This document shows, piece by piece, positions 1 to 38,590 of a stretch of 64,000 bases of DNA; the first letter of the stretch is position 1; each line of letters begins with the position of its first letter. The stretch is from Candidatus Hadarchaeales archaeon. Lineage in GTDB: Archaea > Hadarchaeota > Hadarchaeia > Hadarchaeales > WYZ-LMO6. The notes below the pieces were generated by a model. The model was given only the letters and a program-made list of their open reading frames with translations, did not search any database and was not told the DNA's origin. The DNA lies in the NCBI GenBank assembly GCA_038736355.1, contig JAVYML010000001.1, positions 124,001-188,000 on the forward strand, given 5' to 3'. The translations under genes and the position numbers were made by a program.

Positions 1-3000
1 GTCGCGGTGGACCTCAAGCCTGTAGGTGACCCTGTCGCTTTCCCCGTCCTGGGAGGTGAACCAGCGGAAGGTGGGCCTTCCATCGGGCTCCTCCAGCAGG
101 GCCCCGTTCTCCGGATGGACGGGGATGGGTTCGGTGGGAGGCGTCACATCGTACCCGACCGTGAACTGCCAGACCTCCGACCAGGGTGAGTTCTCCCCTC
201 CCGCCTCAGCCCTGACCTTCCAGTAGTAGGTCCCGTTCTCCAGCTCGGTCACGAAGGTGTACTGGCTGGCCTGAACCACCTCCTCGAATGGGGACCCGAA
301 GTTCTCGTCCTCGTCCACCCATAGGCGGTAGACCTCCGCACCCTCCACATCCGACCAGTCGAGGGTGGGGGTGTTGTCATTCAGCCAGGCATCGTTCTCG
401 GGGGAGAGGAGGACGGGCGCACCCAGCGTGATCACCCTGCCCTGCCTGGAGTCCAGGAGGGACCAGCGGGCGGGTGCGGTGCTCCACCCCGTCCACTCCT
501 CCACCTTCCTCCATCCTCCCACCCCTTCCAGGAGGATCTGCCACCCCTCCAGCTCGCTCCAGCTCGCTCCAGCTCCGACCGAACAGGTCCAGGACTCGAT
601 TCCGCCCCACCCGGCGGCGGCCTGGAGTATCGCCAGCCAGTCTTCGACCTCCCTCCAGAGCACCGAGGTCGCACAGGTCGCAGTCCAGGAGTCAGCAGTA
701 GACCAGGAAGCGGAGGTCAGGATTCCCCCTGCCCATCCCTCCACCTCTTCCCACCCAGCTCTGGTCTCCAGGGCATTCATCCATTCCTCCACCGCCCACC
801 AGCTGGCCCCGGCCTGCACCGTTCCCGTCCAGGAATCGAGCCATGACCAGCTGGCGAGAGCGCTCACCGCTCCCGTCCAAGCCTCGACCTGCCGCCAGCC
901 GGAGGGAGCCTGGGCCGAGCAGGACCAGTCCTCCACCGGCTGCCAGGAGGCTTGGGCCTGGAGTTCCTCCGTCCAGACCTCCAGCTGGTGCCATCCCACC
1001 GGTGTCTCGAGTCCTCCCGTCCAGCCCTCGACCGGCTGCCAGGAGGCGGGAGCGGTGATCACCTCCGTCCAGGAGTCCGCCGGACACCATCCCGCGGGGG
1101 CGGAGAGGGTTTCTGTCAGGGAGGCGAGAGGCTGCCAGAAGGCGGGGGCGGAGAGGGTTTCTGTCAGGGCCTCCAGCAGGATCCAAGAGGCCGGACCCTG
1201 GAGCATTCCCGTCCAGGAATCCAGCTGGTGCCAGGAAACCCGTGTCTCGAGACCCGAACTCCAGCCCTCCAGGGACTGCCAGGAGACGGGCGCGGAGAGC
1301 GCACCCGTCCAACCCTCTACCGGTTGCCAGCTGGCCGCGGCCCCTATTGCTCCCGTCCAGGAGTCAACCCCCAACCACCAGGCCCGTGCCTCGACCGAGT
1401 CCGTCCAAGAGTCCAGGGAGGACCAGGCGACTGCGGTTTCAGACTCACAAGTCCAGGTCTCCAGATGGGACCACTCGGCCGGGGATGAGAAGATGCCCGT
1501 CCAGCTTTCCGCCTGCCACCATCCGGCAGGAGCTAAAGCCCTTCCCGAAAGGGAGTCGATGGGCTGCCAACCAGCCACCGAGGACGCCGTCCCACTCCAA
1601 GAGTCGAGGAGCTGCCAGAAGACCGGGGAGAAAAGCATGCCCGTCCAAGAGTCTGCCTGCCACCAAGAGGCTTGGGCCAGGATTCCCTCCCACCATGATT
1701 CGGCCTGCACCCAGGAGCTTGGGGCCAGGACCGCGCCCGACCAGCCTTCCACTGGCCGCCAAGTGGCGGGTGCCACGAGGCCACCTATCCAAGACTCTGC
1801 CGGCAACCAGCCAGCCATGGTCTCCACCGCGAGCATCCAGGACTCCAGCCCCTGCCACCAGACCGAGGAGAGGAGGGTCTCCATCCATCCCTCCACTGGC
1901 TGCCAGGTAGCGGGTGCGGAACTCTCCGCGCTCCACTCCTCCATCAGGTGCCAGGTGGCCGGGGCTGGAACGTCCCCCGATAGGGAGTCCAGCGACCTCC
2001 ATCCAGCCGGTGCGGGTAGCGTAACCGTCCAGCTCTCCACAACCGTCCACTCCACCGGGGCTCGAGCGCTGGTGACCCAACCCTCGACGGGCTGCCATCC
2101 CACAACCATACCCACCTCTCCGGTCCAGGAATCTGCGAGCCGCCAAGCCACCGCCGCGTGGAAGGTCCCGGACCACCCCTCCAGCTCCACCCATCCCGGG
2201 GAGACCAGGAACCACCTGGTGTCCGACCATCCCGAGCAGTTGCCTGCGTTGTCCCTGGACCTTATCCTCCAGTACCAGACTCCTTCCTCCAGCGGGAGGT
2301 GCCAGGAGTTCTCGGTGATCCAGCCGGAGGACTGGAGGCCCACCTGGAAGTCCTCGGTCTGGGCCACCTGGACCTCGTAGAGGACGGGGAGGGAGTTCTC
2401 CTGAACGCGGGACCAGGAGAACTCCACGACCTTGCCCACCGTGGCCCCGTTCTCGGGGGAGAGGTTCTCGGGCACCGCGGGAGGAACGGTGTCCACCCTG
2501 AAGGACCTCGGGGAGGAGAAGGAGCCCCAGTTGCCCGCATTGTCCCTGGCCGCCACCCTCCAGTAGTAGAGGTTGTCGGGTAGGTAGCTGCACCAGCTGT
2601 TCTCGGATAGCCAAACCTCCACCACCATTTCCCCCGGCAGGAAGTCCGGGGAGGTGGAGATCTGGAGCTTGTAGGTCAGGGGATAAGAGTTCTCGGGTGG
2701 CGGGAACCAGGAGAGCTGGGGAGTGCTGTCGTTCTCGTTAACCCCGTCGGGTGGTGAGGCTAGGACGGGAGGAACTGGCGGGAGGGTATCCACCCTGAAG
2801 GTCCAGACCTCGGACCAGGGGGAGTTCTCCCCTCCCCTGAACAACCTCACCCTCCAGTAGTAGAGGTTGTCCTGGAGTCCGTTCTCCAGCTCGTGGGAGG
2901 TGACCGTGAGGCCTCTCTTCCAGTAGATGATGGGCTCGGAGAAGGTGGGTTCGTTGTCCACCTGGAGCTCGAAGTTGTCGGCGGGCTGGAGGTTCTCCCA

Positions 3001-6000
3001 GCTCAGGGTGGGGGTGGTATCCCTGGTGTTGGTCCCGGAGGGCGGGGAGAGGAGGATGGGCGCCAGAAGCGGTGCGGAGAGGACGAAGGTCCAGGCCTCA
3101 AGCTGCGTCCAGAGAACCACGGCGGACCCGGTACCCATCCAGCCCTCCAGGAGTCCCCACCGCGCCGGGGAGGAGGGTGAAAGGGACCAGGTTTCGAGAG
3201 GCCTCCACAGTGCGGAGGCCGTGAGCATCACCGTCCAGGTTTCGGCCGCCCTCCAGAGGGCCCGGGCACTCACCGTCCCTACCCACGTCTCCACACACCA
3301 CCAGGAAGCGTACGTCTGGAGGGTCAACGTCCAGGCTTCAATTGTCCGCCAGCTTGCAGCGGTTAGGACACCTCCCGTGCGGGAATCCAGCTCCCTCCAG
3401 CCCGCGGAGGTTTGGACCCCTCCGGTCCAGCCTTCCATCTGGCACCAGGAGGCCCGGGCCTCAGCGACCAACGTCCACCTCTCCACCTCCTCCCAGAAAG
3501 AGGGCGCGGCGGTGGTAACGGTCCAGCTCTCCTGCACCGACCAGAAGGCCGGAGCCTGACTTCCGGCCATCCAGCCCTCCACCTGGGACCAAGAGGTCAA
3601 GGTCACCACGCATCCCTCCCAGACCTCTATCTCCCACCATTGGGCCTGTGCCTGCAGAACCCCGCTCCACCCTTCCAAAAGGGACCAAGTTGCGGAGGAC
3701 TGAACCTCCCCAGCCCAGCCCTCCACCTCCTCCCATCCGGCCCCCGCTCCGGTCAGGAGGGACCAGGACTCCATCATGAACCAGGACGCCACGGTCTCCA
3801 GCGCTCCCGCGAGGGTATCCAGGGGCTGCCAGGATCCCAAGGCCTGAAGCGCCACGGTAAGGGTATCCAGGACCCACCAGCCGGCAGGCGAGTGCGCACT
3901 GTCCTCCCAGGTCTCAACCGCCACCCAGGAGGCTGGGGACGGGAAGACACACATCCAGGTCTCGAGCGCCACCCAGGAGGCGGGTGACTGGACCGTCCAC
4001 CACCATCCCTCCAGAGCTGACCAGCCAGCGAGCGTGCTCACTCCTTCCTCCCATCCCTCCAGAGCTGACCAGAGGACGGAGGTCCGGAGTTCCGTAACCC
4101 AGGCCTCCATCAGCTCCCATCCCGCCACCGCCTCCAGAGTGGTGCTCCAGCCTTCGGTCGCCCTCCAGAGAGCCCGTGCCTCCACCGTGCCCGACCAGGA
4201 ATCCGCAGCGCTCCAACCCGCCGGGGACTGGAGGGTGCAGACCCAGACTTCGGCGGGTGACCAGGAAGCCGGGCCCCCGACGACCGCCGCGAGGGATTCC
4301 AGGGACTCCCACCGCGCCGCGGTCCGCACCTCCTCCGCCCAGCCATCCAGGGCCTGCCATCCCGCGGAGGTCCTTGCTTCTCCTGACCACTCCTCCAGAG
4401 ACCACCAACCCACCGGAACCAAGACCGAAGCCGATACCGAATCCAGGATCCGCCACTCGACCCGGGGAACCAGGGAGCAGGCCCACTCCTCCACTCCCCG
4501 CCACTCGGCCACGGAGCCCAAGCCCACACCCCATCCTTCCAGGGGCGACCAGACCGCTGGAGAACCTGCCAGGCCTGCCCAGGTCTCCACCACCCTCCAC
4601 TCCGCTGTTGCTCCGATCGAAGAGACCCAGAGATCCACCTCCCGCCAGACAGGGGCGGAGGTTCCACCCACCAGCCAGGAGTCGAGCCACCGCCATTCCA
4701 CGAGCGTGCCCATCTCCCCCGAGAACTCCTCCAGCACAAACCATCCCACCACCATCCCCACACCTTCCGTCCACTGCTCCAGCTCTCTCCACCAGGCCGA
4801 AGCCTGGAACTCGGACATCCGGGAATCAAGCGTTATCCAGCCCGAGGGGAGGGTGGAGGCTCCCACCTCCCAGCCCTCCAGCTCCCTCCACACCGCCACC
4901 ACGTTGACCGTCCTGGTCTCCGAGACGTTCTCACCCGCGGCGTTCACGGCCCATACCCTCCAGTAGTAGGTCCCGTAGTCCTGGAAGACCGTGGAGTACC
5001 AGTTGTCGTCCGGGGGCGACCTCCAGACGTTCTCCACCGGGGAAGAGAAGTCGGAGTCGTTGTCTATCTCTATGCGGTGGTTATCAGCGGTGGAACCCCT
5101 GATCCAGGTGAAGGTGACCTCCAGGGGGACGTTCTCACCTTCCGCCGGGGAGAGGAGGGAGGGGGCCCCGGGCGGTCCCGTCACGACCGTGAAGGTCCTG
5201 ACCACGGAGCAGTTCTCCCCGAAGGCGTTGAGGGCCCAGACCCTCCAGTAGTAGATGGCAGGAGTGTAGCCGGGCGAGGGCTTGGTCCAGCTCCTGGTGG
5301 TGGCGGGGAAGACCAGGTTGTCCAGGGGAGAGGAGAAGTCTTCGTCGTTGTCCACCTCGAGCCTGAAGTTCTCCAGCGGGCTGGTGTTGTCCCACTGGAA
5401 GGTGGGGGTGGGAGTGGTGAAGGCGTTGTTCTCCGGGAGGAGGAGGGCGGGCGAGGAGGGCATGCACCCCAGCTTCTCTTCCCATCCCTCCACCACCCTC
5501 CACCCGGCGGTGGAGCCTAGCACAGCCAGCTTGTCTTCTAGGGAGTACCAGCCAGAGGGGGCCCAAAGGATCGCTTCCCAAACTTCCTGGACCCGCCAGA
5601 GAACCTGGGCCTGTGCGGTTTCAGTCCAGGCTTCAACCTCCCTCCAGAGGACCAGAACCTGTACAGTCGCCCAGTAGCTGTCGATTTCCCGCCAGCTTGC
5701 CGAGGTCCCGAGAAGGGTGGTGAAGGTCTCGACCACCCACCACCAGGCCGTGGCCACGATTTGCTCGGTCCAAGAGTCGAGCGGACACCATTCGACCTGG
5801 ACCCGAACCGCCCAGGTCCAGGAGTCCACCCACGACCACTGAACGGAAACCGTGACCTCAACCGTGAAAACATCGAGGGCAAGCCACTGGGCTGGCCCTC
5901 CTATTTCCCCTGCAAGGGAATCAAGGAACAGCCAGAGGGCCTGAGTCTCGAGCATTCCCATCCAAGTCTCGAGGTACTGCCAGCCCGCCTGTGCCTGCAC

Positions 6001-9000
6001 ACTTCCCGCCCAAGTCTCAATCAACCGCCAAGAAGCGGGGGTCTGGAGGGTATCCGCCCAATCCTCGAGGATCCACCATGAGGCGCGTGCGAGGACCACA
6101 CAGGTCCAAGATTCCAATTCCATCCATTCAGCCTGTGTTTGAACCGCTCCCATCCAGGAATCCAGCCTAGTCCAAGCCACGGGCGGAGAAACCTCTACCG
6201 TCCAGGCCTCAAGCTTCTGCCAGGAGGCCTGTGTAGAGACCGCACACATCCAGGAATCCGTGGGCTGCCAGGAGGCCTGCGCCCGAGCACTCACCGTCCA
6301 ACTTTCGACGGTCCTCCAGAGTGCTACAGTTCCCGCGCCCCCAGTGCAAGTGTCCAACTCCTCCCAAGCCCCCGCGGTCCAAGCACTTCCATCCCAGCTC
6401 TCAACCGCCCTCCACCCGGCCGTGGTAAGGGCCTCTCCCGTCCAAGTATCCACCGCCGACCAAACGGCCGTGGTCTGGAGTTCCCCCATCCAGCCTTCCA
6501 ACTCACGCCAGACACTAACCACGGTGAAGTACCAGACATTCTCCGAGACGTTCTCCCCTGCGGAGTTCACGGCCCAGACCCTCCAGTAGTAGGTCCCGGG
6601 TGCGTATCCTCCAGCCTTCACCCAGCTGTTCTCCCCCACCACCCAAACGTTGTCCACGCAGCCGTTGGTCCAGTCCTCGTCGTTGTCCACCTCGATCCTG
6701 TGGTTCTCGGCGTTCGCCCCGTTCTCCCACTCGAAGGTCACATCTTCGTAGGCGGGAAAGATCGAGTTGTTCTCGGGCCTGCATAGCCTGGGACTCCCCG
6801 GAAGAAGCTGGGTCTGGATGCTCTCCGTCCAACTCTCCAGGAACAGCCAAACCGCCACAGTCTGGACGGCCTCACTCCAGCCTTCCACGATCTGCCAAGA
6901 ACCGGCGGCGCGAACCACGATGGTCCAGCTCTCAGCCATTACCCACAGAGTGGTCGGCTGGATGTTCTCCACCCAGCCCTCGAGGATTTGCCAGGAAGCT
7001 GTGGTTCCTACCCCTCCAGCACAGGAGTCCAACTCTCTCCAGCTCACGAAGGTCAGGATCTCGCCTGTAAACGTTTCAAGGGACCTCCAGGCACCCAGGG
7101 ACTGCACCGTGCTTGTCCAAGCTTCCAGGTGCTGCCAGCTCACCGGGGAACCAACGCTGTCAACCCAGCCCTCGACCATGTACCACGCAACTGCGATTTG
7201 GAGGCTTCCTGCCCAAGTGTCAAGAACCTGCCAGAAAGCTCCTGTCAGGATTCCCTGCATCCAGGCATCGAGAGGCTGCCAGGCGACCCTCCCTTCCACC
7301 GTCCAAGTCCAAACTTCAAGTGGCTGCCAGCTCACCCCACCCTCCGTGACCACGCTCCACGCGTCGACTGGCTGCCAAGAGGCCCGGGTCTGGAGCTCCG
7401 TCGTCCAGGCATCGAGAGTTTGCCAGGAGATTGCGGTCCAAACCACTCCGGACCAGCTTTCCAGGGCCCGCCAGCCTGCCTGAGCCAGCAGCTCCACCGA
7501 CCAGTTTTCCAGTGCCCGCCAGTGGGCTGGAGCCGAAACCTTCCCCGTCCACTCCTCCACAGGAAGCCAGGAAGAAGGCGCTCCAACGGTGGAGGCCCAG
7601 CTCTCCTGCATCTGCCATGCCGCCGTGGTTCCCAGAACCTCGGTCCACTGCTCGAGACTCGCCCAGCTCCCTCTACCCTCCACCCTCACAGCCCATTCCT
7701 CGATCGACCGCCATGAGGCTTGGAAGTGGAGCGCGCTTTCCCAGACCTCGAGGGTCCACCAGCTTACTGACACGGACATGGCACCCATCCACTCGTCCGC
7801 CGTCCACCAGTTCACAGGCGCACGCAGGGTCTCGGACCAAACCTCCATCGTCTGCCAACCGACCTGTACCACACCTGCGCCTGTCCACGTCTCGAGCGAC
7901 CTCCAGCTGGCCCCTCCCTCCAAGACCTCCGTCCAGGTCTCAAGCTCCGCCCAGGAAATTTTGGTTGGAAGGACGCAGGACCATGAGTCAAGGAAGGACC
8001 AACCCACTACTGGGGAAGAAACCCCCCCGAGCCAGGATTCCAGCCAGAACCAGTCAGAGGGGGAGGTGGAGAGGTTCTCCGTCCAGGAGTCCAGGACTCT
8101 CCAGGTACAGATCCTGAGGACCCTCGAAGGGGAGGAATTCTCGTTCCCCGCGTAGTCGACGGCGCCCACCCTCCAGGTGTGCTCCCCGAGCGAGAAGGTG
8201 TGGGAATAGGAGGTGACGGTGTTGTCCACCTCCCCCACGAGCCCTTCGTCCACGTAGATTCGATAGTTGTCCACGCCCGTCAGAGCATCCGTCGAAGGGT
8301 TCCATTTGAGCTCCACCTGAGCCTCGGAGAGGTCCAGGTAAGTGTTGTTCTCCGGGGACACGAGAGGGGGGGCGGTGGGTGGATGGGTATCCACCGTGAA
8401 CTTCCAGACGTTGTCCGACCAGTTCTCATAGCCTGCGCCCGTGGCCGCAACCTTCCAGTAGTAGACGTTGTCAGGGAGCTGGTTCTCTATCTCCAGAGAG
8501 GTCAGGGCCGGTGGGATGTTCGAGTTATCGTAGATGTTCTCCGAAAAATTGGAATAGGGGCTGATCACCAGCCTGTAACCGGTGTGGTTGTCGGATGCCG
8601 TCCAGGCAAAGGTTGGGGTGTTGTCGTTGAGGTTTTCGTTGTTTTTTGGAGAAACCAGCTGGGGGCGCCCTGGACCGTAGACCACCACCCTGCAGAAGTC
8701 CACCATGAGGCTCGTCTGGATGGAGTCGTTGTCCCTCTGGATGTATCTCGCATAGACGTTCCCGCCGGAGAGGTAGCTGGTTCCAGTAAGGTTGTAGCTG
8801 AAGAAAAGGGGGCTCCCGGCACTCCCCCCCACCTGCAGGTTCCCCAGGTTGTCCCACTGGCCCGTCGAGAAGTTGTAGAGGTAAAGCGAGATGGGTTCAG
8901 AGTCCCCCGCCGTGTAGTACTTTATTTCTAGGATGTGGCCCGTGCCGCTGGGTATGCCCGTTATGTCGTGCCGGACATCCACACGATAGGCCTTGGGGAT

Positions 9001-12000
9001 TTCCCTCCACTCCGCGAAGAGCCTGTGGACGTGGGCCGTGCTTCCGGCTCCCTCCTGATAGAGAACTATTCCCTCCCCTGGCAGGAGGAGGAGCGGTCCC
9101 GTGATCTCGAACGTGAGCAGCCGAACGCCCGTTATCTGTGGGGTCAGAGCAGCGCCTGTGGCTCCCGGGGAGGTGACCGAAACCAGCCTGCTCGTCGCTT
9201 CGCCCACAGGAGTGACCGTGGCATTACCATACCTGGCCACCAGAGCGGGAGCGGGTGCATCCGTGTGTTTCCTTGGAACGTAGTCGGGGGGAATAGAGGT
9301 CGCACCCGTGGCTGACGATATCCTCTGCACCGTTATCGGAACATAAGTGGCTGTGGTAGTGGCAACCACCATCACCATCATCTTCTTGATTACCGCAACA
9401 TTGTTGGAATCCGCTGGATTGAAGAAGGAGGCGAAGTTGTCACCTGCGGTGGCGGTACCAGTCACCGGGCCTATGGAGAGCACGTAGTCCCTCTCGGCGG
9501 AGGGAGCGGTGGTCGTTTCCCCCCACTCCACCAGGAGTATCACCCTATGGTTTGCGTTTCCCGTCCCGGACTCCTGGTAGAAGGCTATTCCTTCCCCGGG
9601 TTTCAGGACGAGGGGCTCATTGGGCACGAACACGAGGCTCTGCCACCCGTGCTGCTGTCCCACCGCCCCCTCCGACGTTATTCCCAGAATCCGGCTTTCC
9701 GTGGCGCCCGCAAAAGTGACCGTAGGGCCTGTGCGTCTGATGTCCATCGCGGTGTCCGGGGATCCCGTGTGCTTCTTGGGGACGTTCGCGGCGGCTATCT
9801 GAGTCCCACCGCTGGCTGCCGTGATTCTCCTAACACTCATCGGGATGTAGGTCGCTGCCCCTGCCGCCGAGACCCTCGCCTCAATCCTCTTGACAATCGC
9901 GTACTTCCCAGACCCAGCGGGATTGAGGATTGAAGCGTAGATATAGGGCATGGTGGTTGAGCCATTTATGGGCCCTATCGAAAGGAGGTATTCTCCTTTC
10001 GGGGAGGGTGCGGTGGACACCTCGGCCCACTCTATGTATGCCGAGAAGTGGTGGTCGATATCTCCCGCCGCTTCGGAGTAGAACGCTATCCCCTCTCCTG
10101 GCTGAAGAATCAGCTTTTCATCGTCCCCACCAAATACTATCTCCCTGTTGACGTACTGTCCTGCCGCACCAGGGGTAACCACGCTCAACAGCCTGGAGTC
10201 GGCCGTGCCGCTCCAGGTGAAGCCTGGGACGGTTCCGAGGGTATGCCTGATGTCCATGGCGGTGTCCGGGGATCCCGTGTGCTTCTTGGGGACGTTCGCG
10301 GCGGCTATGGCGGTCCCCGCCGTGGGGGCGCCCGTGAACCTGCGCACCGTGAAGGGGATGTACAGTGCTGCGGCGTCGGCGATAATCCTCACCCCAATCC
10401 TCTTCACAACTGCGGTTCTGCCAGAGCCGGATGGATTGTAGAACGAGTAATAGACATAGTTGGCTCCCGGCGCGGTGGTCAGCTCAACCCTGGGAAAGGC
10501 CAGCAGGTACTCTCCCTGGGAAGAGGGAGTGGAAGTTTTCTCGTCCCACTCAACGGTCGCCAGGATGAGGTGGTTGGAATCGCTCGCGGCCTCGTTGTAC
10601 AACGCAACGCCCTCGCCGGGTTGCAGGATTATGGGTTCGTTCGGCTCAAAGATGAGTTCCTTCTTGGCATACTGGTGGTCTGCGGCCCCTGGCGAAATCA
10701 CGAGCATCAGCCTGGAGTCGGCCGTGCCGCTCCAGGTGAAACCGGGGGCGGTCCCCAGGTTGTACCTGAGGTCCATCGCGGTGTCCGTGGACCCCGTGTG
10801 CTTCTTGGGGACGTTCGCGGCGGCTATGGCGGTCCCCGCCGTGGGGGCGCCCGTGAACCTCCTGAGGGCAAAGTTTGAGGTGTATACTGCGGCACCATCG
10901 CAGTCTATGCTTATCCTGACCCTCCTGATGATGGCGGTCCTGCCCGAAGTCGAAGGATTGTAGAAGGAGTAGTGAACGTAGCCGGCGGCCCAGTTTGTCC
11001 CACTCCTCCTCGGGAAGGTCAGGATGTAGCCACCCAGAGGTGTCGGCGCGGTGGGAACCTCCTTCCATTCGACCAGGAGGTAGATCCTGTGGTTGGTATT
11101 ACCCGCCGCCTCCTGGTACAGGGCTATTCCCTCGCCTTCCCGCAGAACCAGGTTTTCCTGTTGAAACACCACTTCCTGGTGACCCTGATGGGTTCCGGCG
11201 GTAGCAGGCGAGACCACCGACATCAGCCTCGAGTCGGCCGTTCCGGCCCAAGTCACGCTGATGCCGGGACCGTACCGTATACTCATCGCCGTGTCGGGTG
11301 CTCTGGAATCCTTCTTGGGAACGCTCGAGGCCTGGATGACCGTACCTCCGCCGGTAACGTTTGTGATTCTCCTCAGGGTAAAATCCACCCTGCTGGCGGT
11401 CCCCACGGCGTTGACCATTATCACGATCCTCCCGATCACCGCGGTTCTGCCGGAGCCAACGGGGTTGAAGAAGGAGGCGAACACATCATTCGCCGTGGCG
11501 GTTCCTGACACCGGACCGATAGTGAGCAGGTAGGAGTTCTCCACCCCAGGTGTTCCGCTATCGCTCTCGTAGAGGTTTTCATAGACGCCATCATCGCTCT
11601 GGGCCCCTGAAAGCCCGCTCGTCCCACCCTCATAAATCGTCTCTCCCTTCACGTAGACGATAGCGTAGACGGAGAAGCCCGAACTCCTGGCCCTGAAATG
11701 TAATGAGGCTCCATCCTCACCCTCCTTCCAAGTGGAAAGCTCCTCCCATCCCCTCTCGCCGTAGTGCCAGAGCGCCAGCCTGCCAGACCCTCTTCCCTCC
11801 AGCCAGCTCTTCGGGACGGAGAACCCTATCCAAGCCTCTTCAAGGAGTTCTCTCTGCAGGGAAGTGGAGAGATCGAGGTATGAGTAGACTTGAACCTTCC
11901 CCACGTAGACCGCCTCTTCTCCCGAGCCCACAAGGTTGGCGGGGGGCACACCCTGCGGGAGGGAATCGAGGGCTTCCGCCGTTACCTCGAAATCCCTCGC

Positions 12001-12978
12001 CTGTCCCCTCATCAAGAGCTCGATATACCTGACGGGGAGGTTTTCGAACCTCGCCAGCGCTCTTCTGTTCGCCCGGCCAAAGTTGGCCCTGGCCCTCCCT
12101 GAAACCCAACGGGCCCACCTCTCCCAGTTCTCCGTCCCAGCCTCCCATTCCTCCAGGGTAACCCAGCCCGAAGGGAGGTTCTCCCGTTGGAAATCCTCCC
12201 CCACGCTCCAAGAGTCTAGAGGGTAGAAGGACCCGCCTGCCTGGTGGAGATTCTCCCCCACACTCCAAGAGTCAAGAAGAGAGAAAGACTCGCCCACCCC
12301 CCCACCGTCCTCTCCTAACTCCTCCCATCCCTGGGGAGGCTTGGCCCTGAGCCCGATTCCCCAAGCCTTCGGACCGGTCTCCCCGCTCAACCCGGGGTCC
12401 TCGCTCGCCAGGAACACCCTGACCTGCAGGTACCTGAAGGGCGGGAGGAAGGAAAGATCGGCGGGGGGTGAGGTGAAGAGGGTGCCGGAAGTACCGTCGG
12501 GACCCATCCACTCGCTCCAGCCCTCCCCGTCGGTGCTCACCCTCACCTGCACGCCCACCCAAGAGTGAAGGACCTGTGGCTCCAAGCCCGCAACATCTTC
12601 CCTTGACGGTTGGTGACCTCCCGTATCCTCCCCAAGCAGGTTTTCTGGAGCCCCTTCCAGCTCCGGCTCCACCCACCCCTCACCCGTCTGAACTACCAGG
12701 GAAGGCTCTTCCCTCTCCCACCACAGCTCCCATCCACCTTCCCCGAGCTCGATGATCTCAGAGACGAAGGAACCCCGTGTGTAACCCGGAAGGAGCCTGA
12801 TGATCCCTCCCGCGTTCTCCGTGTTCTCGAACAGCGGGTAGGATGGAGGGGCCTCCTCCTGGGCCCCCACCGGAACGGGGGGAACCTGCGAGGAGAGGAG
12901 GAGGAGAGAAAGGAGGAGGGAAAAGGCCCTCCTGAGCCCGAGGGAAAGGCAGGTGAGGCGAGAGGGACCTTTCTTCAC
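1..12978 (-). CDS. Giant secreted surface protein with 124 Trp-rich 16-residue repeats (3' end outside window)
   Basis: One minus-strand frame stays open from a GTG at 12978 to the window edge (4326 codons, no stop). The start follows a GGGAGGA-type ribosome site and an in-frame TGA. Residues 1-40 form a signal peptide with a Leu-rich core ending near VGAQ. A Trp/Glu-rich stretch follows, then a PGF-pre-PGF-like domain (about 345-445). Next come five ~170-residue beta repeats (about 480-1320), a LamG-like segment and two FN3-like domains (about 1430-1625). After that, four blocks of a 16-residue Trp repeat (residues 1626-2059, 2157-2508, 2697-3305, 3596-4187) alternate with one, two, three and at least two FN3-like domains (motif YYWRVWAVN, SPENN). 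I infer an exported adhesin or envelope protein. The repeat class is unrecognised, and the C-terminal anchor lies outside the window. The gene begins 4 bp after an upstream wHTH gene, so the two are probably co-transcribed. Confidence 0.93.
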   Translation of the reverse strand, partial: MKKGPSRLTCLSLGLRRAFSLLLSLLLLSSQVPPVPVGAQEEAPPSYPLFENTENAGGIIRLLPGYTRGSFVSEIIELGEGGWELWWEREEPSLVVQTGEGWVEPELEGAPENLLGEDTGGHQPSREDVAGLEPQVLHSWVGVQVRVSTDGEGWSEWMGPDGTSGTLFTSPPADLSFLPPFRYLQVRVFLASEDPGLSGETGPKAWGIGLRAKPPQGWEELGEDGGGVGESFSLLDSWSVGENLHQAGGSFYPLDSWSVGEDFQRENLPSGWVTLEEWEAGTENWERWARWVSGRARANFGRANRRALARFENLPVRYIELLMRGQARDFEVTAEALDSLPQGVPPANLVGSGEEAVYVGKVQVYSYLDLSTSLQRELLEEAWIGFSVPKSWLEGRGSGRLALWHYGERGWEELSTWKEGEDGASLHFRARSSGFSVYAIVYVKGETIYEGGTSGLSGAQSDDGVYENLYESDSGTPGVENSYLLTIGPVSGTATANDVFASFFNPVGSGRTAVIGRIVIMVNAVGTASRVDFTLRRITNVTGGGTVIQASSVPKKDSRAPDTAMSIRYGPGISVTWAGTADSRLMSVVSPATAGTHQGHQEVVFQQENLVLREGEGIALYQEAAGNTNHRIYLLVEWKEVPTAPTPLGGYILTFPRRSGTNWAAGYVHYSFYNPSTSGRTAIIRRVRISIDCDGAAVYTSNFALRRFTGAPTAGTAIAAANVPKKHTGSTDTAMDLRYNLGTAPGFTWSGTADSRLMLVISPGAADHQYAKKELIFEPNEPIILQPGEGVALYNEAASDSNHLILATVEWDEKTSTPSSQGEYLLAFPRVELTTAPGANYVYYSFYNPSGSGRTAVVKRIGVRIIADAAALYIPFTVRRFTGAPTAGTAIAAANVPKKHTGSPDTAMDIRHTLGTVPGFTWSGTADSRLLSVVTPGAAGQYVNREIVFGGDDEKLILQPGEGIAFYSEAAGDIDHHFSAYIEWAEVSTAPSPKGEYLLSIGPINGSTTMPYIYASILNPAGSGKYAIVKRIEARVSAAGAATYIPMSVRRITAASGGTQIAAANVPKKHTGSPDTAMDIRRTGPTVTFAGATESRILGITSEGAVGQQHGWQSLVFVPNEPLVLKPGEGIAFYQESGTGNANHRVILLVEWGETTTAPSAERDYVLSIGPVTGTATAGDNFASFFNPADSNNVAVIKKMMVMVVATTTATYVPITVQRISSATGATSIPPDYVPRKHTDAPAPALVARYGNATVTPVGEATSRLVSVTSPGATGAALTPQITGVRLLTFEITGPLLLLPGEGIVLYQEGAGSTAHVHRLFAEWREIPKAYRVDVRHDITGIPSGTGHILEIKYYTAGDSEPISLYLYNFSTGQWDNLGNLQVGGSAGSPLFFSYNLTGTSYLSGGNVYARYIQRDNDSIQTSLMVDFCRVVVYGPGRPQLVSPKNNENLNDNTPTFAWTASDNHTGYRLVISPYSNFSENIYDNSNIPPALTSLEIENQLPDNVYYWKVAATGAGYENWSDNVWKFTVDTHPPTAPPLVSPENNTYLDLSEAQVELKWNPSTDALTGVDNYRIYVDEGLVGEVDNTVTSYSHTFSLGEHTWRVGAVDYAGNENSSPSRVLRICTWRVLDSWTENLSTSPSDWFWLESWLGGVSSPVVGWSFLDSWSCVLPTKISWAELETWTEVLEGGASWRSLETWTGAGVVQVGWQTMEVWSETLRAPVNWWTADEWMGAMSVSVSWWTLEVWESALHFQASWRSIEEWAVRVEGRGSWASLEQWTEVLGTTAAWQMQESWASTVGAPSSWLPVEEWTGKVSAPAHWRALENWSVELLAQAGWRALESWSGVVWTAISWQTLDAWTTELQTRASWQPVDAWSVVTEGGVSWQPLEVWTWTVEGRVAWQPLDAWMQGILTGAFWQVLDTWAGSLQIAVAWYMVEGWVDSVGSPVSWQHLEAWTSTVQSLGAWRSLETFTGEILTFVSWRELDSCAGGVGTTASWQILEGWVENIQPTTLWVMAESWTIVVRAAGSWQIVEGWSEAVQTVAVWLFLESWTESIQTQLLPGSPRLCRPENNSIFPAYEDVTFEWENGANAENHRIEVDNDEDWTNGCVDNVWVVGENSWVKAGGYAPGTYYWRVWAVNSAGENVSENVWYFTVVSVWRELEGWMGELQTTAVWSAVDTWTGEALTTAGWRAVESWDGSAWTAGAWEELDTCTGGAGTVALWRTVESWTVSARAQASWQPTDSWMCAVSTQASWQKLEAWTVEVSPPVAWTRLDSWMGAVQTQAEWMELESWTCVVLARASWWILEDWADTLQTPASWRLIETWAGSVQAQAGWQYLETWMGMLETQALWLFLDSLAGEIGGPAQWLALDVFTVEVTVSVQWSWVDSWTWAVRVQVEWCPLDSWTEQIVATAWWWVVETFTTLLGTSASWREIDSYWATVQVLVLWREVEAWTETAQAQVLWRVQEVWEAILWAPSGWYSLEDKLAVLGSTAGWRVVEGWEEKLGCMPSSPALLLPENNAFTTPTPTFQWDNTSPLENFRLEVDNDEDFSSPLDNLVFPATTRSWTKPSPGYTPAIYYWRVWALNAFGENCSVVRTFTVVTGPPGAPSLLSPAEGENVPLEVTFTWIRGSTADNHRIEIDNDSDFSSPVENVWRSPPDDNWYSTVFQDYGTYYWRVWAVNAAGENVSETRTVNVVAVWRELEGWEVGASTLPSGWITLDSRMSEFQASAWWRELEQWTEGVGMVVGWFVLEEFSGEMGTLVEWRWLDSWLVGGTSAPVWREVDLWVSSIGATAEWRVVETWAGLAGSPAVWSPLEGWGVGLGSVAEWRGVEEWACSLVPRVEWRILDSVSASVLVPVGWWSLEEWSGEARTSAGWQALDGWAEEVRTAARWESLESLAAVVGGPASWSPAEVWVCTLQSPAGWSAADSWSGTVEARALWRATEGWSTTLEAVAGWELMEAWVTELRTSVLWSALEGWEEGVSTLAGWSALEGWWWTVQSPASWVALETWMCVFPSPASWVAVETWEDSAHSPAGWWVLDTLTVALQALGSWQPLDTLAGALETVASWFMMESWSLLTGAGAGWEEVEGWAGEVQSSATWSLLEGWSGVLQAQAQWWEIEVWEGCVVTLTSWSQVEGWMAGSQAPAFWSVQESWTVTTAAPSFWEEVERWTLVAEARASWCQMEGWTGGVQTSAGWRELDSRTGGVLTAASWRTIEAWTLTLQTYASWWCVETWVGTVSARALWRAAETWTVMLTASALWRPLETWSLSPSSPARWGLLEGWMGTGSAVVLWTQLEAWTFVLSAPLLAPILLSPPSGTNTRDTTPTLSWENLQPADNFELQVDNEPTFSEPIIYWKRGLTVTSHELENGLQDNLYYWRVRLFRGGENSPWSEVWTFRVDTLPPVPPVLASPPDGVNENDSTPQLSWFPPPENSYPLTYKLQISTSPDFLPGEMVVEVWLSENSWCSYLPDNLYYWRVAARDNAGNWGSFSSPRSFRVDTVPPAVPENLSPENGATVGKVVEFSWSRVQENSLPVLYEVQVAQTEDFQVGLQSSGWITENSWHLPLEEGVWYWRIRSRDNAGNCSGWSDTRWFLVSPGWVELEGWSGTFHAAVAWRLADSWTGEVGMVVGWQPVEGWVTSARAPVEWTVVESWTVTLPAPAGWRSLDSLSGDVPAPATWHLMEEWSAESSAPATWQPVEGWMETLLSSVWWQGLESWMLAVETMAGWLPAESWIGGLVAPATWRPVEGWSGAVLAPSSWVQAESWWEGILAQASWWQADSWTGMLFSPVFWQLLDSWSGTASSVAGWQPIDSLSGRALAPAGWWQAESWTGIFSSPAEWSHLETWTCESETAVAWSSLDSWTDSVEARAWWLGVDSWTGAIGAAASWQPVEGWTGALSAPVSWQSLEGWSSGLETRVSWHQLDSWTGMLQGPASWILLEALTETLSAPAFWQPLASLTETLSAPAGWCPADSWTEVITAPASWQPVEGWTGGLETPVGWHQLEVWTEELQAQASWQPVEDWSCSAQAPSGWRQVEAWTGAVSALASWSWLDSWTGTVQAGASWWAVEEWMNALETRAGWEEVEGWAGGILTSASWSTADSWTATCATSVLWREVEDWLAILQAAAGWGGIESWTCSVGAGASWSELEGWQILLEGVGGWRKVEEWTGWSTAPARWSLLDSRQGRVITLGAPVLLSPENDAWLNDNTPTLDWSDVEGAEVYRLWVDEDENFGSPFEEVVQASQYTFVTELENGTYYWKVRAEAGGENSPWSEVWQFTVGYDVTPPTEPIPVHPENGALLEEPDGRPTFRWFTSQDGESDRVTYRLEVHRD
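418..2193 (-). repeat. Trp-repeat block D: 37 tandem 48-bp units
   Basis: Thirty-seven consecutive in-frame units of exactly 48 bp encode a 16-residue motif W-x-x-[VL]-[ED]-x-W-[TS]-x-x-[VL]-x-[AT]-x-[AV]-[SG]. The first Trp codon is at 2193 and the last unit starts at 465. The distance between them, 1728 bp, is exactly 36 units, so there is no phase slip. Some neighbours are recent copies: a 20-bp stretch at 1101-1120 recurs at 1149-1168, offset by exactly 48 bp. FN3-like domains flank the block. Confidence 0.95.
3064..4890 (-). repeat. Trp-repeat block C: 38 tandem units
   Basis: Thirty-eight units of the same 16-residue motif run from the Trp codon at 4890 to 3064. One unit, the first, has 17 residues, so the total is 38x48+3 bp. 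Position 7 is Trp in most units and occasionally Phe, Leu, Val or Arg. Two FN3-like domains precede the block and three follow it. Confidence 0.94.
5455..6510 (-). repeat. Trp-repeat block B: 22 tandem 48-bp units
   Basis: Twenty-two exact 48-bp units encode the W(x2)[VL][ED]xW motif, from 6510 to 5455 (1056 bp = 22x48). The block begins directly after an FN3-like strand ending FTVVSV, as in block C where the preceding strand ends VNVVAV. The repeat array therefore takes off at the same structural position of the FN3-like domain. Confidence 0.94.
6802..8103 (-). repeat. Trp-repeat block A: 27 tandem units
   Basis: Twenty-seven units run from the Trp codon at 8103 to 6802. The first two units are 17 residues long, and the total of 1302 bp equals 27x48+6. 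This block is the closest to the N-terminus and has the most varied residues at positions 8-16. The Trp at position 1 is retained in every unit. Confidence 0.94.
9000..11540 (-). repeat. Five ~170-residue direct repeats within the giant protein
   Basis: Five successive domains share [DE]Y(L)LSIGP at the start, FYNPSGSG, VPKKHTGSPDTAM in the middle, PGEGIAFYQEA and a closing VEW. They start near 11537, 11040, 10515, 9995 and 9492. Some DNA is nearly identical: 9738-9798 matches 10258-10318 with one difference over 61 bp, and 10289-10338 matches 10811-10860. This shows recent internal duplication. The fold is probably a beta-sandwich. I do not recognise a named family. Confidence 0.88.
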
Positions 12979-18530: not shown

Positions 18531-19784
18531 TTATCGGTTATCCCTCTCCCTGGAACTTTCCTTGTTTCCTCGAATCGCGGATTTGAGCCTCTCCAGTCTT
18601 GACTCCACCTCCTTCTCGAGCTCGGCAGCGGGTGCCACCTCCAACCAAATCCTCTGGGTCCTCCCCCTCGGGTGGAGGGTGGTTTCCTCCACCTCCAGAA
18701 TCCCCAGCATCCTGAGCCTCTCCAAGTGCTCCAGCATGGTGGAATGGTGCCTGGGCTTTTCCCCGTACTCCTCGCAAACCACCTCGTATGCCTTCCTGAG
18801 TTCCCCCGTCGTCAGCTCTCCGACCCTCTTCAGCCTCCTCAAAGCCGCCAAGAGGAGGAGAAGCTCGTGGAGGGAGAGTTCGGAAAGGATTTCCCTCTTC
18901 AGCTCCGGATAAAGGAAAGCCCTGGCGGCCCTCACGTGCTCGGGCAAAACCGTCTTGCTCCCCTGGCCCTCCGCCAACATCCCTGCCCTCAGGAGGAGCT
19001 CTATCCCCATCCTGGCATCGCCCGTCTTGGAAGCCATTTCCGCCGCCAGCTCGAGGGTCTCGTCGGGAAGGGCCCCCCTGCGGAAGGCCTCTTCCCTCCT
19101 GGCCTTGAGGATTTCCACCAACTGTTCCTTCGTGTAGGGTGGGAGCTCGAGGTGATGGCCTAGGAAGGTGGCCCTAGTGGGCTCATCCAGTCCTCCAAGG
19201 AACCTCAGGTCCCTGGAAATGGAGAGGAGGCTTATCCTCGAAGCGGTCTCCCCAGCCCTGCTCAGGGAATAGAGGAGGTCGGGACCATGCCTCTCCACCA
19301 AGTAGTCCACCTCATCCAGGATGAGGAGAAGGGAGAGGGAGTGGTGCTTCAAGTGCTCCACGAGCATCGAGAGGAGTTCCCCCTTTCCCACACCCCTCTC
19401 CGGCCAAGTGGGGAAGAACTTCCTCACGGTCTCCAGCAACAGGGAGTAGGGGGTCCTTCCCCTACAGTTCAGGTAGAGGTGGAAGAGCTTCCTTCCCCTC
19501 CTCCCCATCTCCCTCTCGGCTTCCATCCCGAACCTCCGGGAGAGGGCGGTTTTTCCCACCCCTATCCTTCCCGTGATCAGCACCCTGCAGGGGATACCTC
19601 CCTCCAGCAGGGGACGGAAGAGGGAAACCAACCTCCTGGACTCCTCCTCCCTTCCCACGAGCTTGGAAGGCAGATAATCGGGTGAGAGCTTTCCGGGATC
19701 GGTGAAGATCGAACCCTTCCCCAGTTCCTCCCTGAAGATCTCCTCGAACACTTTTTCTTTTTTCCTCCCAGAGGAAAAATCCAT
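18531..19784 (-). CDS. cdc6: Orc1/Cdc6 replication initiator
   Basis: This 417-residue AAA+ protein has a Walker A (GRIGVGKTALS, about 71-82), a Walker B (LLILDEVDYL) and a sensor-2/lid region (GDARMGIELLLRAG). The C-terminal winged helix (about 300-390) carries HHSTMLEHLERLRMLGILEV. It binds origins and loads MCM. Length and motif order are those of archaeal Orc1/Cdc6. Its start codon overlaps an inverted repeat that also lies upstream of the divergent tungstate operon. The 36-bp gap is too short for a full origin, so no origin is claimed. Confidence 0.93.
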   Translation of the reverse strand: MDFSSGRKKEKVFEEIFREELGKGSIFTDPGKLSPDYLPSKLVGREEESRRLVSLFRPLLEGGIPCRVLITGRIGVGKTALSRRFGMEAEREMGRRGRKLFHLYLNCRGRTPYSLLLETVRKFFPTWPERGVGKGELLSMLVEHLKHHSLSLLLILDEVDYLVERHGPDLLYSLSRAGETASRISLLSISRDLRFLGGLDEPTRATFLGHHLELPPYTKEQLVEILKARREEAFRRGALPDETLELAAEMASKTGDARMGIELLLRAGMLAEGQGSKTVLPEHVRAARAFLYPELKREILSELSLHELLLLLAALRRLKRVGELTTGELRKAYEVVCEEYGEKPRHHSTMLEHLERLRMLGILEVEETTLHPRGRTQRIWLEVAPAAELEKEVESRLERLKSAIRGNKESSRERDNR

Positions 19785-37046: not shown

Positions 37047-37820
37047 TTAAATTCCCCTTATCAGCTCCTGTTTCGTGACCTGAAGGCCCAAGGGTGGAAC
37101 GAAGGAAATTTCGAAAACGGCCTCCCCCCATAGGGAGGAGGGTAGCCTCCTGAGCCTCCTAGCGTACATGGCCCTCTTCCTCTTGTAGGGTCCTAGCCTA
37201 ACCCACTCGAAGCAGAATACCACATCGGCACATTCCTCGAGCTCCTGCAGGTTCTCCCCACCCAACTTGGTCTCGAGGGGAGCGTAGATCAGACAATTTC
37301 CCCACTCTTTGCTCTCCCTTTGAAGTTTGCGCAGGAAGAGGAGGAACTTCCTCCACTCCTCCTCGCGGAGGAAAGGCAAGAAATCTGTGAGTTCGGAAAG
37401 GATGACCAAGCTGTTCCTTCCCTCCTCCCTCAAGAAGTGGTGGAGGGAATCCAAGAGCTCATCCCAAGCTCGGAGGGGGGAGAAATACTGCTCCGAGAAA
37501 TCCTTGAACCTAGCCCACTTCTCGAACTCCCTGTAAAGCTCCTCACCGAAACTCGAGGAAATCTCCTCCCTCAAATCCCCCTCACCGCGGGAAAAGGAAA
37601 GCCACCACACCCCTTCTGGCAAAACCTGCCCTCCCGCCGTTTCGAAGAGACCCGATTTGATGGCCGCCATCACCACGGAGGAAGTGAGGGCGAACTCATG
37701 GGGACCGGAGCCTATCTCCCCAAGAAGGAGGACCAAAGAACCCGCCGGAATCCCTCCTCCCAGAGACTCGTCCAATGAAAGGATTCCCGTGGGTATTCTC
37801 TTCAAGGACTCCCCCCTCAA
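37047..37820 (-). CDS. KaiC/RadA-like ATPase fold with degenerate Walker A
   Basis: The product has 257 residues; TTG 37820 overlaps the MinD gene stop (TTGA). The N-terminus ILSLDESLGGGIPAGSLVLLLGE is that of KaiC/GvpD/FlaH-like RecA-fold ATPases. The P-loop reads GEIGSGPHEF, lacking the Lys-Thr/Ser of GxGK[ST], so ATP hydrolysis is doubtful. The Walker B region is LVILSELTDFLPFL. The related archaellum protein FlaH binds ATP without efficient hydrolysis, so a FlaH-like scaffolding role at the pilus motor is plausible (inference). It is the last gene of the minus-strand pilus set. Confidence 0.72.
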   Translation of the reverse strand: MRGESLKRIPTGILSLDESLGGGIPAGSLVLLLGEIGSGPHEFALTSSVVMAAIKSGLFETAGGQVLPEGVWWLSFSRGEGDLREEISSSFGEELYREFEKWARFKDFSEQYFSPLRAWDELLDSLHHFLREEGRNSLVILSELTDFLPFLREEEWRKFLLFLRKLQRESKEWGNCLIYAPLETKLGGENLQELEECADVVFCFEWVRLGPYKRKRAMYARRLRRLPSSLWGEAVFEISFVPPLGLQVTKQELIRGI

Positions 37821-38548
37821 GATTCTCCCACGAGCATTGTCGCCAGTTTCTTGATGGCCTTAGCGGCTGGTGATTTGGGCTTCCTAAGCACGAGCATCCT
37901 CCTCATCATAGCGCACTCCGCCACGGCCCGATCCTCTGGAATGGAAACTAAGACCTTCAGACCCATCCTCTTCTCTATCTCCCCCACCTCGAGCACCTTT
38001 GGCTTCCTGAAAAAGCCTAGGAAGGAAGACTTGGGCATACGGTTCAGCACCACTCCCCTACGCCTGACCTCCAGGGCCTCCGCCACCAGCAGGGTCTTGA
38101 AGGTGGACTCCAAGGCCAAGGGGTCGGGGGTGAGGATGAAGAGTACTTCATCCGCCGCCGCCAAGGGGGCCAAACTGTACCTGCTCACCCCAGGAGGGGT
38201 ATCCAAGAGGATGAAGTCGTATTTGGGGGAAAGTTCCTTCACCACGGCCTCCAGTTTCCTAGGGGAAGATTTGAGAAAGCCTTCGAGGGTGGGACCGGAG
38301 GGAAGGAAGCTGATACCGTTGACTTTGTAGATGGCCTCCGTCACTCTTTTCTCACCCGAGAGAACATCGTGGAGGGTGGCGGGAAGCTGGGGGAGACCCA
38401 TGAGGGCGGCGGCATTCCCCATGGCTAGGTCCCCATCTATCACCAATACCCTTTTTCCGAGCTGACCCAAACTCACTCCCAAGTTGAGGGTGGTGGTAGT
38501 CTTTCCCACCCCACCTTTTCCCGAGGCTATAGCCACAACCTTGGCCAT
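37817..38548 (-). CDS. MinD/ParA-type ATPase
   Basis: This 243-residue protein has a deviant Walker A KGGVGKTTTTLNL (10-23), a switch I-like VIDGDLAMGNAAALMGL and a switch II/Walker B DFILLDTPPGVSRYSL. The C-terminus may contain a weak amphipathic membrane-targeting helix (SPAAKAIKKLATMLV). In Tad and other type IV pilus loci, MinD-like proteins (TadZ/CpaE type) position the machine. It sits between the KaiC-like gene (4-bp overlap) and the platform gene (42 bp). Confidence 0.87.
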   Translation of the reverse strand: MAKVVAIASGKGGVGKTTTTLNLGVSLGQLGKRVLVIDGDLAMGNAAALMGLPQLPATLHDVLSGEKRVTEAIYKVNGISFLPSGPTLEGFLKSSPRKLEAVVKELSPKYDFILLDTPPGVSRYSLAPLAAADEVLFILTPDPLALESTFKTLLVAEALEVRRRGVVLNRMPKSSFLGFFRKPKVLEVGEIEKRMGLKVLVSIPEDRAVAECAMMRRMLVLRKPKSPAAKAIKKLATMLVGES

Positions 38549-38590
38549 CAGTTCCCCAAAGGTTTTGTCTGGAGGTTATTTTAGTTTTGC

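Follow-up and report, generated by a model that had tools for sequence, protein, structure and literature searches.

A tryptophan-rich 16-residue repeat of Hadarchaeales surface proteins, restricted to this archaeal lineage and predicted to form a beta-solenoid stalk

Ice-nucleation proteins (PbINP; PMC9418140, PMC10727499) are membrane-associated surface proteins with tandem 16-residue (48 bp) units that are predicted to form a beta-solenoid. Fibrillar adhesins (PMC8286594) combine an export signal, a long repetitive stalk, and a surface anchor, and Giant1-5 of Apilactobacillus kunkeei (PMC12863079) are extracellular proteins of 3,000-8,000 amino acids (aa) with imperfect repeats and beta-solenoid domains, encoded by consecutive genes of a small genome. 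All of these features recur in the subject of this article, a giant surface-protein gene of a Candidatus Hadarchaeales archaeon (assembly GCA_038736355.1, here G000; 1.27 Mb, four contigs), where the export signal is a hydrophobic N-terminus by reading and the solenoid is a prediction. The gene was analysed in a window of 64,000 nucleotides (G000:C1:124001-188000), in which it forms a minus-strand open reading frame (ORF) at window 1..12978, in a single frame and open at the window edge.

The gene carries a tryptophan (Trp)-rich unit of 16 residues. A scan with a position-specific matrix trained on the units recovers 124 of them on the minus strand, in four arrays of 27, 22, 38, and 37 units between window positions 418 and 8103, which matches almost to the base a preliminary description made from the sequence letters. 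The spacing of 48 bp given there is found in 117 of the 120 within-array intervals, the remaining three being 51 bp. Trp occupies position 1 in 124/124 units and position 7 in 104/124, and an Asp or Glu stands at position 5 in 123/124; altogether, Trp accounts for 12.9% of array residues (257/1,987). When the three giant proteins of this genome were shuffled, 16 scattered matches appeared in total, against 221 in the real sequences. Immunoglobulin (Ig)/fibronectin type III (FN3)-like domains alternate with the arrays, as first described, and a fifth array of 13 units lies in the same 5,630-residue protein just outside the window. The parts of the gene are listed here in window coordinates, unless a contig is named.

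G000:C1:120086-136978, minus strand: the giant surface-protein gene, 5,630 aa, with 4,326/5,630 codons in the window and its 3' part beyond window base 1
12853..12978, minus strand: N-terminal signal peptide (~residues 1-42, ...AFSLLLSLLLLSSQVPPVPVGA), read from the translation with no formal predictor and under the hydropathy cut-off used
11656..11895, minus strand: PGF_pre_PGF domain, residues 362-441 (NCBIfam TIGR04213, E 2.1e-11, above cut-off)
6802..8103, minus strand: array 1, 27 Trp-repeat units (position-specific scan)
6511..6801, minus strand: Ig/FN3-like spacer of 97 residues, from the translation; comparable spacers of the sister giants hit Big_13 and Ig_Rha78A_N
5455..6510, minus strand: array 2, 22 units, every step 48 bp (position-specific scan)
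4891..5454, minus strand: spacer of 188 residues, ~2 Ig/FN3-like domains, from the translation
3064..4890, minus strand: array 3, 38 units (position-specific scan)
2194..3063, minus strand: spacer of 290 residues, ~3 Ig/FN3-like domains, from the translation
418..2193, minus strand: array 4, 37 units, every step 48 bp (position-specific scan); an AlphaFold model covers window 943-1329
157..399, minus strand: Big_13 Ig-like domain after array 4, residues 4194-4274 (Pfam PF19077, E 7.2e-07)

The arrays are not near-identical tandem DNA repeats. Tandem-repeat software sees almost nothing, as the copies are too divergent, and the mean identity between window units is 4.7/16, almost independent of distance along the array. 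Units in relatives are cleaner, reading WQLIETWTGTVEAPAx or WNLIESWTGTVRAPxx, and one 36-unit array in a relative has, on average, 13/16 positions identical. When the two sister giants are compared with their homologues in two congeneric genomes, the between-species ratio of nonsynonymous to synonymous substitution (dN/dS) is 0.18-0.50 in the units and 0.15-0.45 elsewhere. Every aligned unit of these giants (77/77) retains Trp1, and position 3 is nearly free. These ratios indicate that the units are under purifying selection and, because of them and of the Trp1 conservation, the reading frame and strand are supported.

We found units in 17/28 Hadarchaeota genomes using an 18-row profile: in 4/4 genomes of one family (f1) and 13/22 of another (f3), and in neither of the single genomes of two other Hadarchaeota families. 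None were found in the 366 other archaeal genomes searched. A scan of ~85,000 bacterial and archaeal species for the conserved form of the unit gave 23 loci, all in Hadarchaeota-type records, which are titled Hadesarchaea or Candidatus Hadarchaeum apart from two of 'archaeon Bin_28_2_1'; it relies on short conserved peptides, and diverged copies elsewhere could be missed. A viral origin was rejected, a pattern scan of 2.9 million viral contigs having given no match.

That the repeat was unrecognised, as had been claimed, also holds. The window units have no Pfam match at E≤10, no NCBIfam match at the unit positions, nothing better than E>0.03 in PHROGs, and no relative by sequence in the PDB; the unit motifs were not found printed in the literature searched, which includes a study of a Hadarchaeon enrichment that is silent on surface proteins. 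One candidate family was rejected. The canonical units of a relative match DUF3499 (PF12005) in two stretches (best 33-62, E 3.2e-06), covering only ~30 positions of a domain of 119, and the window units do not match it; we read this as a short-motif coincidence multiplied by repetition. This is, then, a real and new repeat family, restricted to the Hadarchaeales lineage and predicted to form a stalk of a kind already known, the beta-solenoid.

As to the fold, AlphaFold2 models were made from alignments built from non-overlapping rows. Eight window units (28-row alignment) gave an all-beta model with a predicted local distance difference test score (pLDDT) of 70 and a predicted template modelling score (pTM) of 0.51; twelve canonical units gave pLDDT 80 and pTM 0.63, and every 16-residue unit of that model contains one strand of 13 residues. 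The solenoid proposed at the outset is thus retained as a prediction, but its two strands per unit are not, since the models give one long strand. VIA-align fits both models over their whole length to beta-helices that we take to be right-handed, at a root-mean-square deviation (rmsd) of 2.4-2.8 Å. Structural alignments include the antifreeze protein 3p4g (Z 15.8, rmsd 2.6, 193 residues), 6x62 (Z 16.0, 180 residues), EtpA (Z 13.6), and a tapirin (Z 12.6), whereas LpxA/GlmU-type helices, presumably left-handed, align at ~10.7 Å only. No family with the same coil motif appears in the VIA or Foldseek lists, which excludes nothing, and Foldseek against viral models returned uncharacterised proteins with low template modelling scores and no informative relative. 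The modelled arrays fit, with moderate confidence, a right-handed beta-solenoid with stacked coils. In a stack of short parallel coils equal positions lie above one another, so that ladders of Trp1, of Trp7, and of the acid at position 5 would be expected.

The company that the units keep in other proteins is worth considering. Unit-bearing proteins in relatives run from ~550 to 3,300 aa. Where the 5' end of the ORF is complete they begin with a hydrophobic segment. A membrane segment at the C-terminus is found in almost every complete ORF, the subtilase L045 being the exception. The partners of the arrays include this subtilase, NosD-type right-handed beta-helices (L054, L056), and Ig-like domains. 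The PGF_pre_PGF domain of relatives sits directly before the anchor, and many relatives carry just 3-12 units. Accordingly, the suggestion that the repeat would be found only in related archaeal giants stands for the lineage but not for the size, as ordinary-sized, membrane-anchored proteins (subtilase, NosD-type beta-helix) carry it also. In L045 (915-3713), the array would serve as the same kind of stalk, with the subtilase as its catalytic head.

Since the arrays lie between head domains and anchor with varied partners, the module is portable; and since the units stand between heads (subtilase, NosD beta-helix) and Ig-like domains with a membrane anchor, a rigid stalk is the best reading. 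We consider it probable that the Hadarchaeales-restricted beta-solenoid unit is a rigid, heat-stable stalk module with Ig-like joints that holds the N-terminal domains far from the membrane. The signal peptide would direct export, and one C-terminal transmembrane helix would retain the protein. Each unit of 16 residues would make one coil of ~0.48 nm, if the solenoid is of the standard type, with ladders of Trp (positions 1 and 7) and of the acidic residue (position 5) running along the rod. The 137 units of the 5,630-residue protein would give a rod of ~65 nm, to which the Ig-like joints would add length, and its distal end would therefore lie well away from the membrane.

Several points weigh against this stalk. 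Rigidity and the stalk role rest on analogy, and the Trp ladders are inferred to be buried. AlphaFold itself is only moderately confident, and of the five models made in each case just one is good (the others have pLDDT 61-39 for the canonical array and 65-36 for the window array). Because the alignments consist of in-register repeats, regular stacking is favoured; repeats commonly give solenoid-like Z scores; and Foldseek found no match for the models in the PDB at E≤0.001. With only one good model of five and such alignments, the solenoid is a moderate prediction.

Other explanations deserve the same scrutiny. The Trp rows may instead be an exposed face, as the preliminary description proposed; the arrays would then be multivalent adhesin regions that hold minerals, glycans, lipids, or cells nearby. 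With two Trp in every coil, an extreme content, the idea suggests itself, and the Foldseek/VIA neighbours include adhesins (tapirins, CbpF, and putative adhesins of Parabacteroides), although these have no more than the fold class in common with the arrays. The substitutions at position 7 point elsewhere: in the 20 units without Trp7 the replacements are Leu (8), Phe (4), Arg (3), Cys (2), Tyr, Lys, and Val, such that 16/20 are Leu, Phe, Val, Cys, or Tyr, which fits a buried packing position better than a sugar platform. The arrays are also embedded between domains of many unrelated proteins, as expected for a spacer, and we regard an exposed adhesive face as unlikely. It is also conceivable that the solenoids associate laterally by way of their ladders to make fibres or a cell sheath, as is thought for ice-nucleation proteins (PMC9418140, PMC10727499), with which they share long ladder-forming coils and the 16-residue period; three giant genes in tandem would suit such an assembly. 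Yet nothing resembling the R-coils of those proteins, whether a capping region or one of opposite charge, was found, many relatives carry no more than 3-12 units, and the window arrays are acidic throughout (Glu plus Asp 45-74 versus Lys plus Arg 15-24 per array) and would therefore repel each other. We hold lateral assembly to be distinctly unlikely.

The fold itself could be something other than a solenoid: the strands might run antiparallel in a beta-meander, the arrays might be small hairpin modules strung together, or they might be elastic linkers with little order. By secondary structure alone, the unbroken 13-residue strand and 3-residue turn of the canonical model would suit a meander too, and the moderate confidence, with four of five models poor, leaves room for it. 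Both models nonetheless align over their whole length and at low rmsd to right-handed parallel beta-helices, and the phase of 16 residues is strict; disorder in particular is ill-suited to an invariant Trp in each unit. A non-solenoid fold is in our judgement improbable, the chance being a slim one. Lastly, the long antisense ORFs in the region might prompt the thought that the repeat is only an open frame in GC-rich DNA and no real protein repeat. With in-frame dN/dS of 0.18-0.50 and no change of Trp1 between species in the sister giants, and with the same protein repeat written in different DNA in 17 genomes, the conservation data refute such an artefact, and the probability that we leave it is negligible. 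The rigid stalk thus stays our preferred account of the arrays.

Two further giant genes lie downstream on the same strand, and by hydropathy all three giants have a membrane segment near the C-terminus with a cytoplasmic tail behind it.

G000:C1:78224-87673, minus strand: sister giant, 3,149 aa
G000:C1:90220-114024, minus strand: sister giant, 7,934 aa

They contain 52 (3,149 aa) and 27 (7,934 aa) scored unit matches, some of which are isolated and probably due to chance. In the larger, a hydrophobic N-terminal stretch is accompanied by numerous Ig-like domains and some Trp units, and beyond a membrane helix comes a HerA/CedD-type P-loop ATPase (DUF87/HerA_C) on the cytoplasmic side. The fusion of a DNA-translocase-like ATPase to a giant surface protein is unusual, and homologues of this ATPase part occur within the phylum only in G002 (94%) and G005 (53%). 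Three MinD/ParA-type ATPase genes stand beside or between the giants, at G000:C1:77476-78270 (plus strand), 88453-89232 (minus strand), and 115028-115834 (plus strand), and could possibly position surface proteins or a polar apparatus. Within the window giant itself, ~5 diverged copies of a ~140-residue domain lie between PGF_pre_PGF and array 1 (window ~8650-11500, minus strand); their motif (GRTAIIRRVRI...ANVPKKHTGS.DTAMDLRY...) was spotted by eye in the translation and is not recognised by Pfam. Elsewhere in the window are a type IV pilus-like cluster at 37047-42119 (minus strand), with KaiC-like, MinD/ParA ATPase, T2SSF membrane protein, and T2SSE/PilB3-type ATPase genes, and an Orc1/Cdc6 initiator gene at 18531-19784 (minus strand), near which a replication origin may lie.

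A side result on asparagine is perhaps more important than the repeat. It draws on window 1-12978, both sister giants, relatives L043-L064, and sampled stretches L104-L163. In the three giants, Asn follows Glu or Asp at 467/769 sites (61%; expected 100), and in 21 unit-bearing relatives at 753/1,571 (expected 198). Pro is almost absent after such [ED]N (1 versus 33.9 expected in the giants, 4 versus 43.7 in the relatives), a depletion not seen after other Asn. At homologous sites, the acid is kept in 98% of cases where Asn is kept and 52% where Asn is lost, versus 76% for acids elsewhere; the two residues thus tend to disappear jointly between species. The bias does not reflect canonical sequons, as N-x-S/T is at expectation in the giants and in the unit-bearing relatives. 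Nor is it a DNA motif: GAGAAC/GACAAC occur almost only in frame 0, and the bias is therefore in frame. It is not a general trait of archaeal Ig-like surface proteins either, for the bias is slight or absent in five ORFs of this type taken from four other archaea.

In the secreted proteins of the order, Glu or Asp stands before Asn ~3 times as often as expected, and N-x-S/T shows no enrichment. In 400 kb sampled from each of two Hadarchaeales genomes, [ED]N is 3.4-fold and 3.1-fold over expectation in putative secreted proteins and 0.85 and 1.10 in cytosolic ones, the secreted class being called by simple hydropathy and the classes impure. In G027 (same phylum, other order) and two other archaea the values are 0.98-1.16; one of the latter two has the classic N-x-S/T enrichment (2.7-fold), and the G027 sample has no N-x-S/T enrichment either. 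The oligosaccharyltransferase family STT3 (PF02516) scores above cut-off in 20/28 genomes, including 11/11 of the most complete. The only STT3-family protein of most Hadarchaeales is divergent, at 28-55 bits compared with 103 in G027, and WWDYG is replaced by [EQ]WS[YF]G in 11/11 Hadarchaeales, while G027 has the canonical motif; the catalytic EL1 Asp and EL5 Glu are aligned and retained. Several Hadarchaeales AglB copies bear C-terminal Ig-like domains.

G000:C1:355500-360500 (L092): AglB/STT3-type gene; relatives L094-L103; contrast L093 (G027)

The pocket that receives the Ser/Thr of the sequon is built by WWDYG and DK/MI (PMC8342417). The change of enzyme and the change of substrate fit each other, and from this we infer glycan transfer to [ED]-N-{P}. 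We rate slightly better than even the chance that the variant AglB modifies Asn in [Glu/Asp]-Asn-{not Pro} without a +2 Ser/Thr, as an order-wide rewired N-glycosylation or other Asn modification, and that the Ig-like joints are densely decorated. To our knowledge, no oligosaccharyltransferase has dropped the +2 Ser/Thr as a general rule. If this is true, the N-x-S/T sequon has a natural, order-wide exception together with the enzyme variant that explains it, and the rewired sequon would be directly testable and useful for glycosylation engineering. The repeat, for its part, is a structural module confined to one lineage of heat-adapted archaea that would add a Trp-ladder class to the beta-solenoids, of interest for high-temperature protein design. 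It also offers a view of the cell surface of Hadarchaeota, a phylum uncultured until recently.

It remains to set these results beside the known systems. Membership of the ice-nucleation proteins is ruled out by sequence: as the preliminary description had stated, the two are unrelated, the unit sharing ≤3/16 identities with the ice-nucleation consensus AGYGSTQTAGEESSLT in any rotation. By position frequencies, the window units are without the TxT, SLT, and Tyr-ladder motifs, the (predicted) aromatic ladder being Trp where theirs is Tyr; there are no R-coils, the arrays are broken by Ig-like domains, and the lineage is hot or subsurface. Among right-handed beta-solenoids, certain adhesins and antifreeze proteins (MpAFP 3p4g, EtpA, tapirins) are alike in predicted handedness and coil stacking (Z 12.6-15.8, rmsd 2.6-2.8). 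They have no detectable sequence relation, however, and differ in coil lengths and motifs, and the Hadarchaeales array is a repeated stalk between Ig-like domains. The A. kunkeei giants (PMC12863079) are bacterial, their repeats are longer and mostly helical, Trp-rich units are not reported for them, and they end in DUF5776 rather than in a transmembrane helix and tail. Canonical archaeal AglB (PMC8342417) is matched by a single STT3-family protein in most Hadarchaeales with both catalytic acids kept, and it differs in the WWDYG motif and in that the Hadarchaeales surface proteins lack N-x-S/T enrichment. Compared with the fibrillar adhesins (PMC8286594), Pfam recognises no adhesive domain in the giant protein; its stalk repeat is new, and its anchor is an archaeal transmembrane one accompanied by a PGF_pre_PGF domain.

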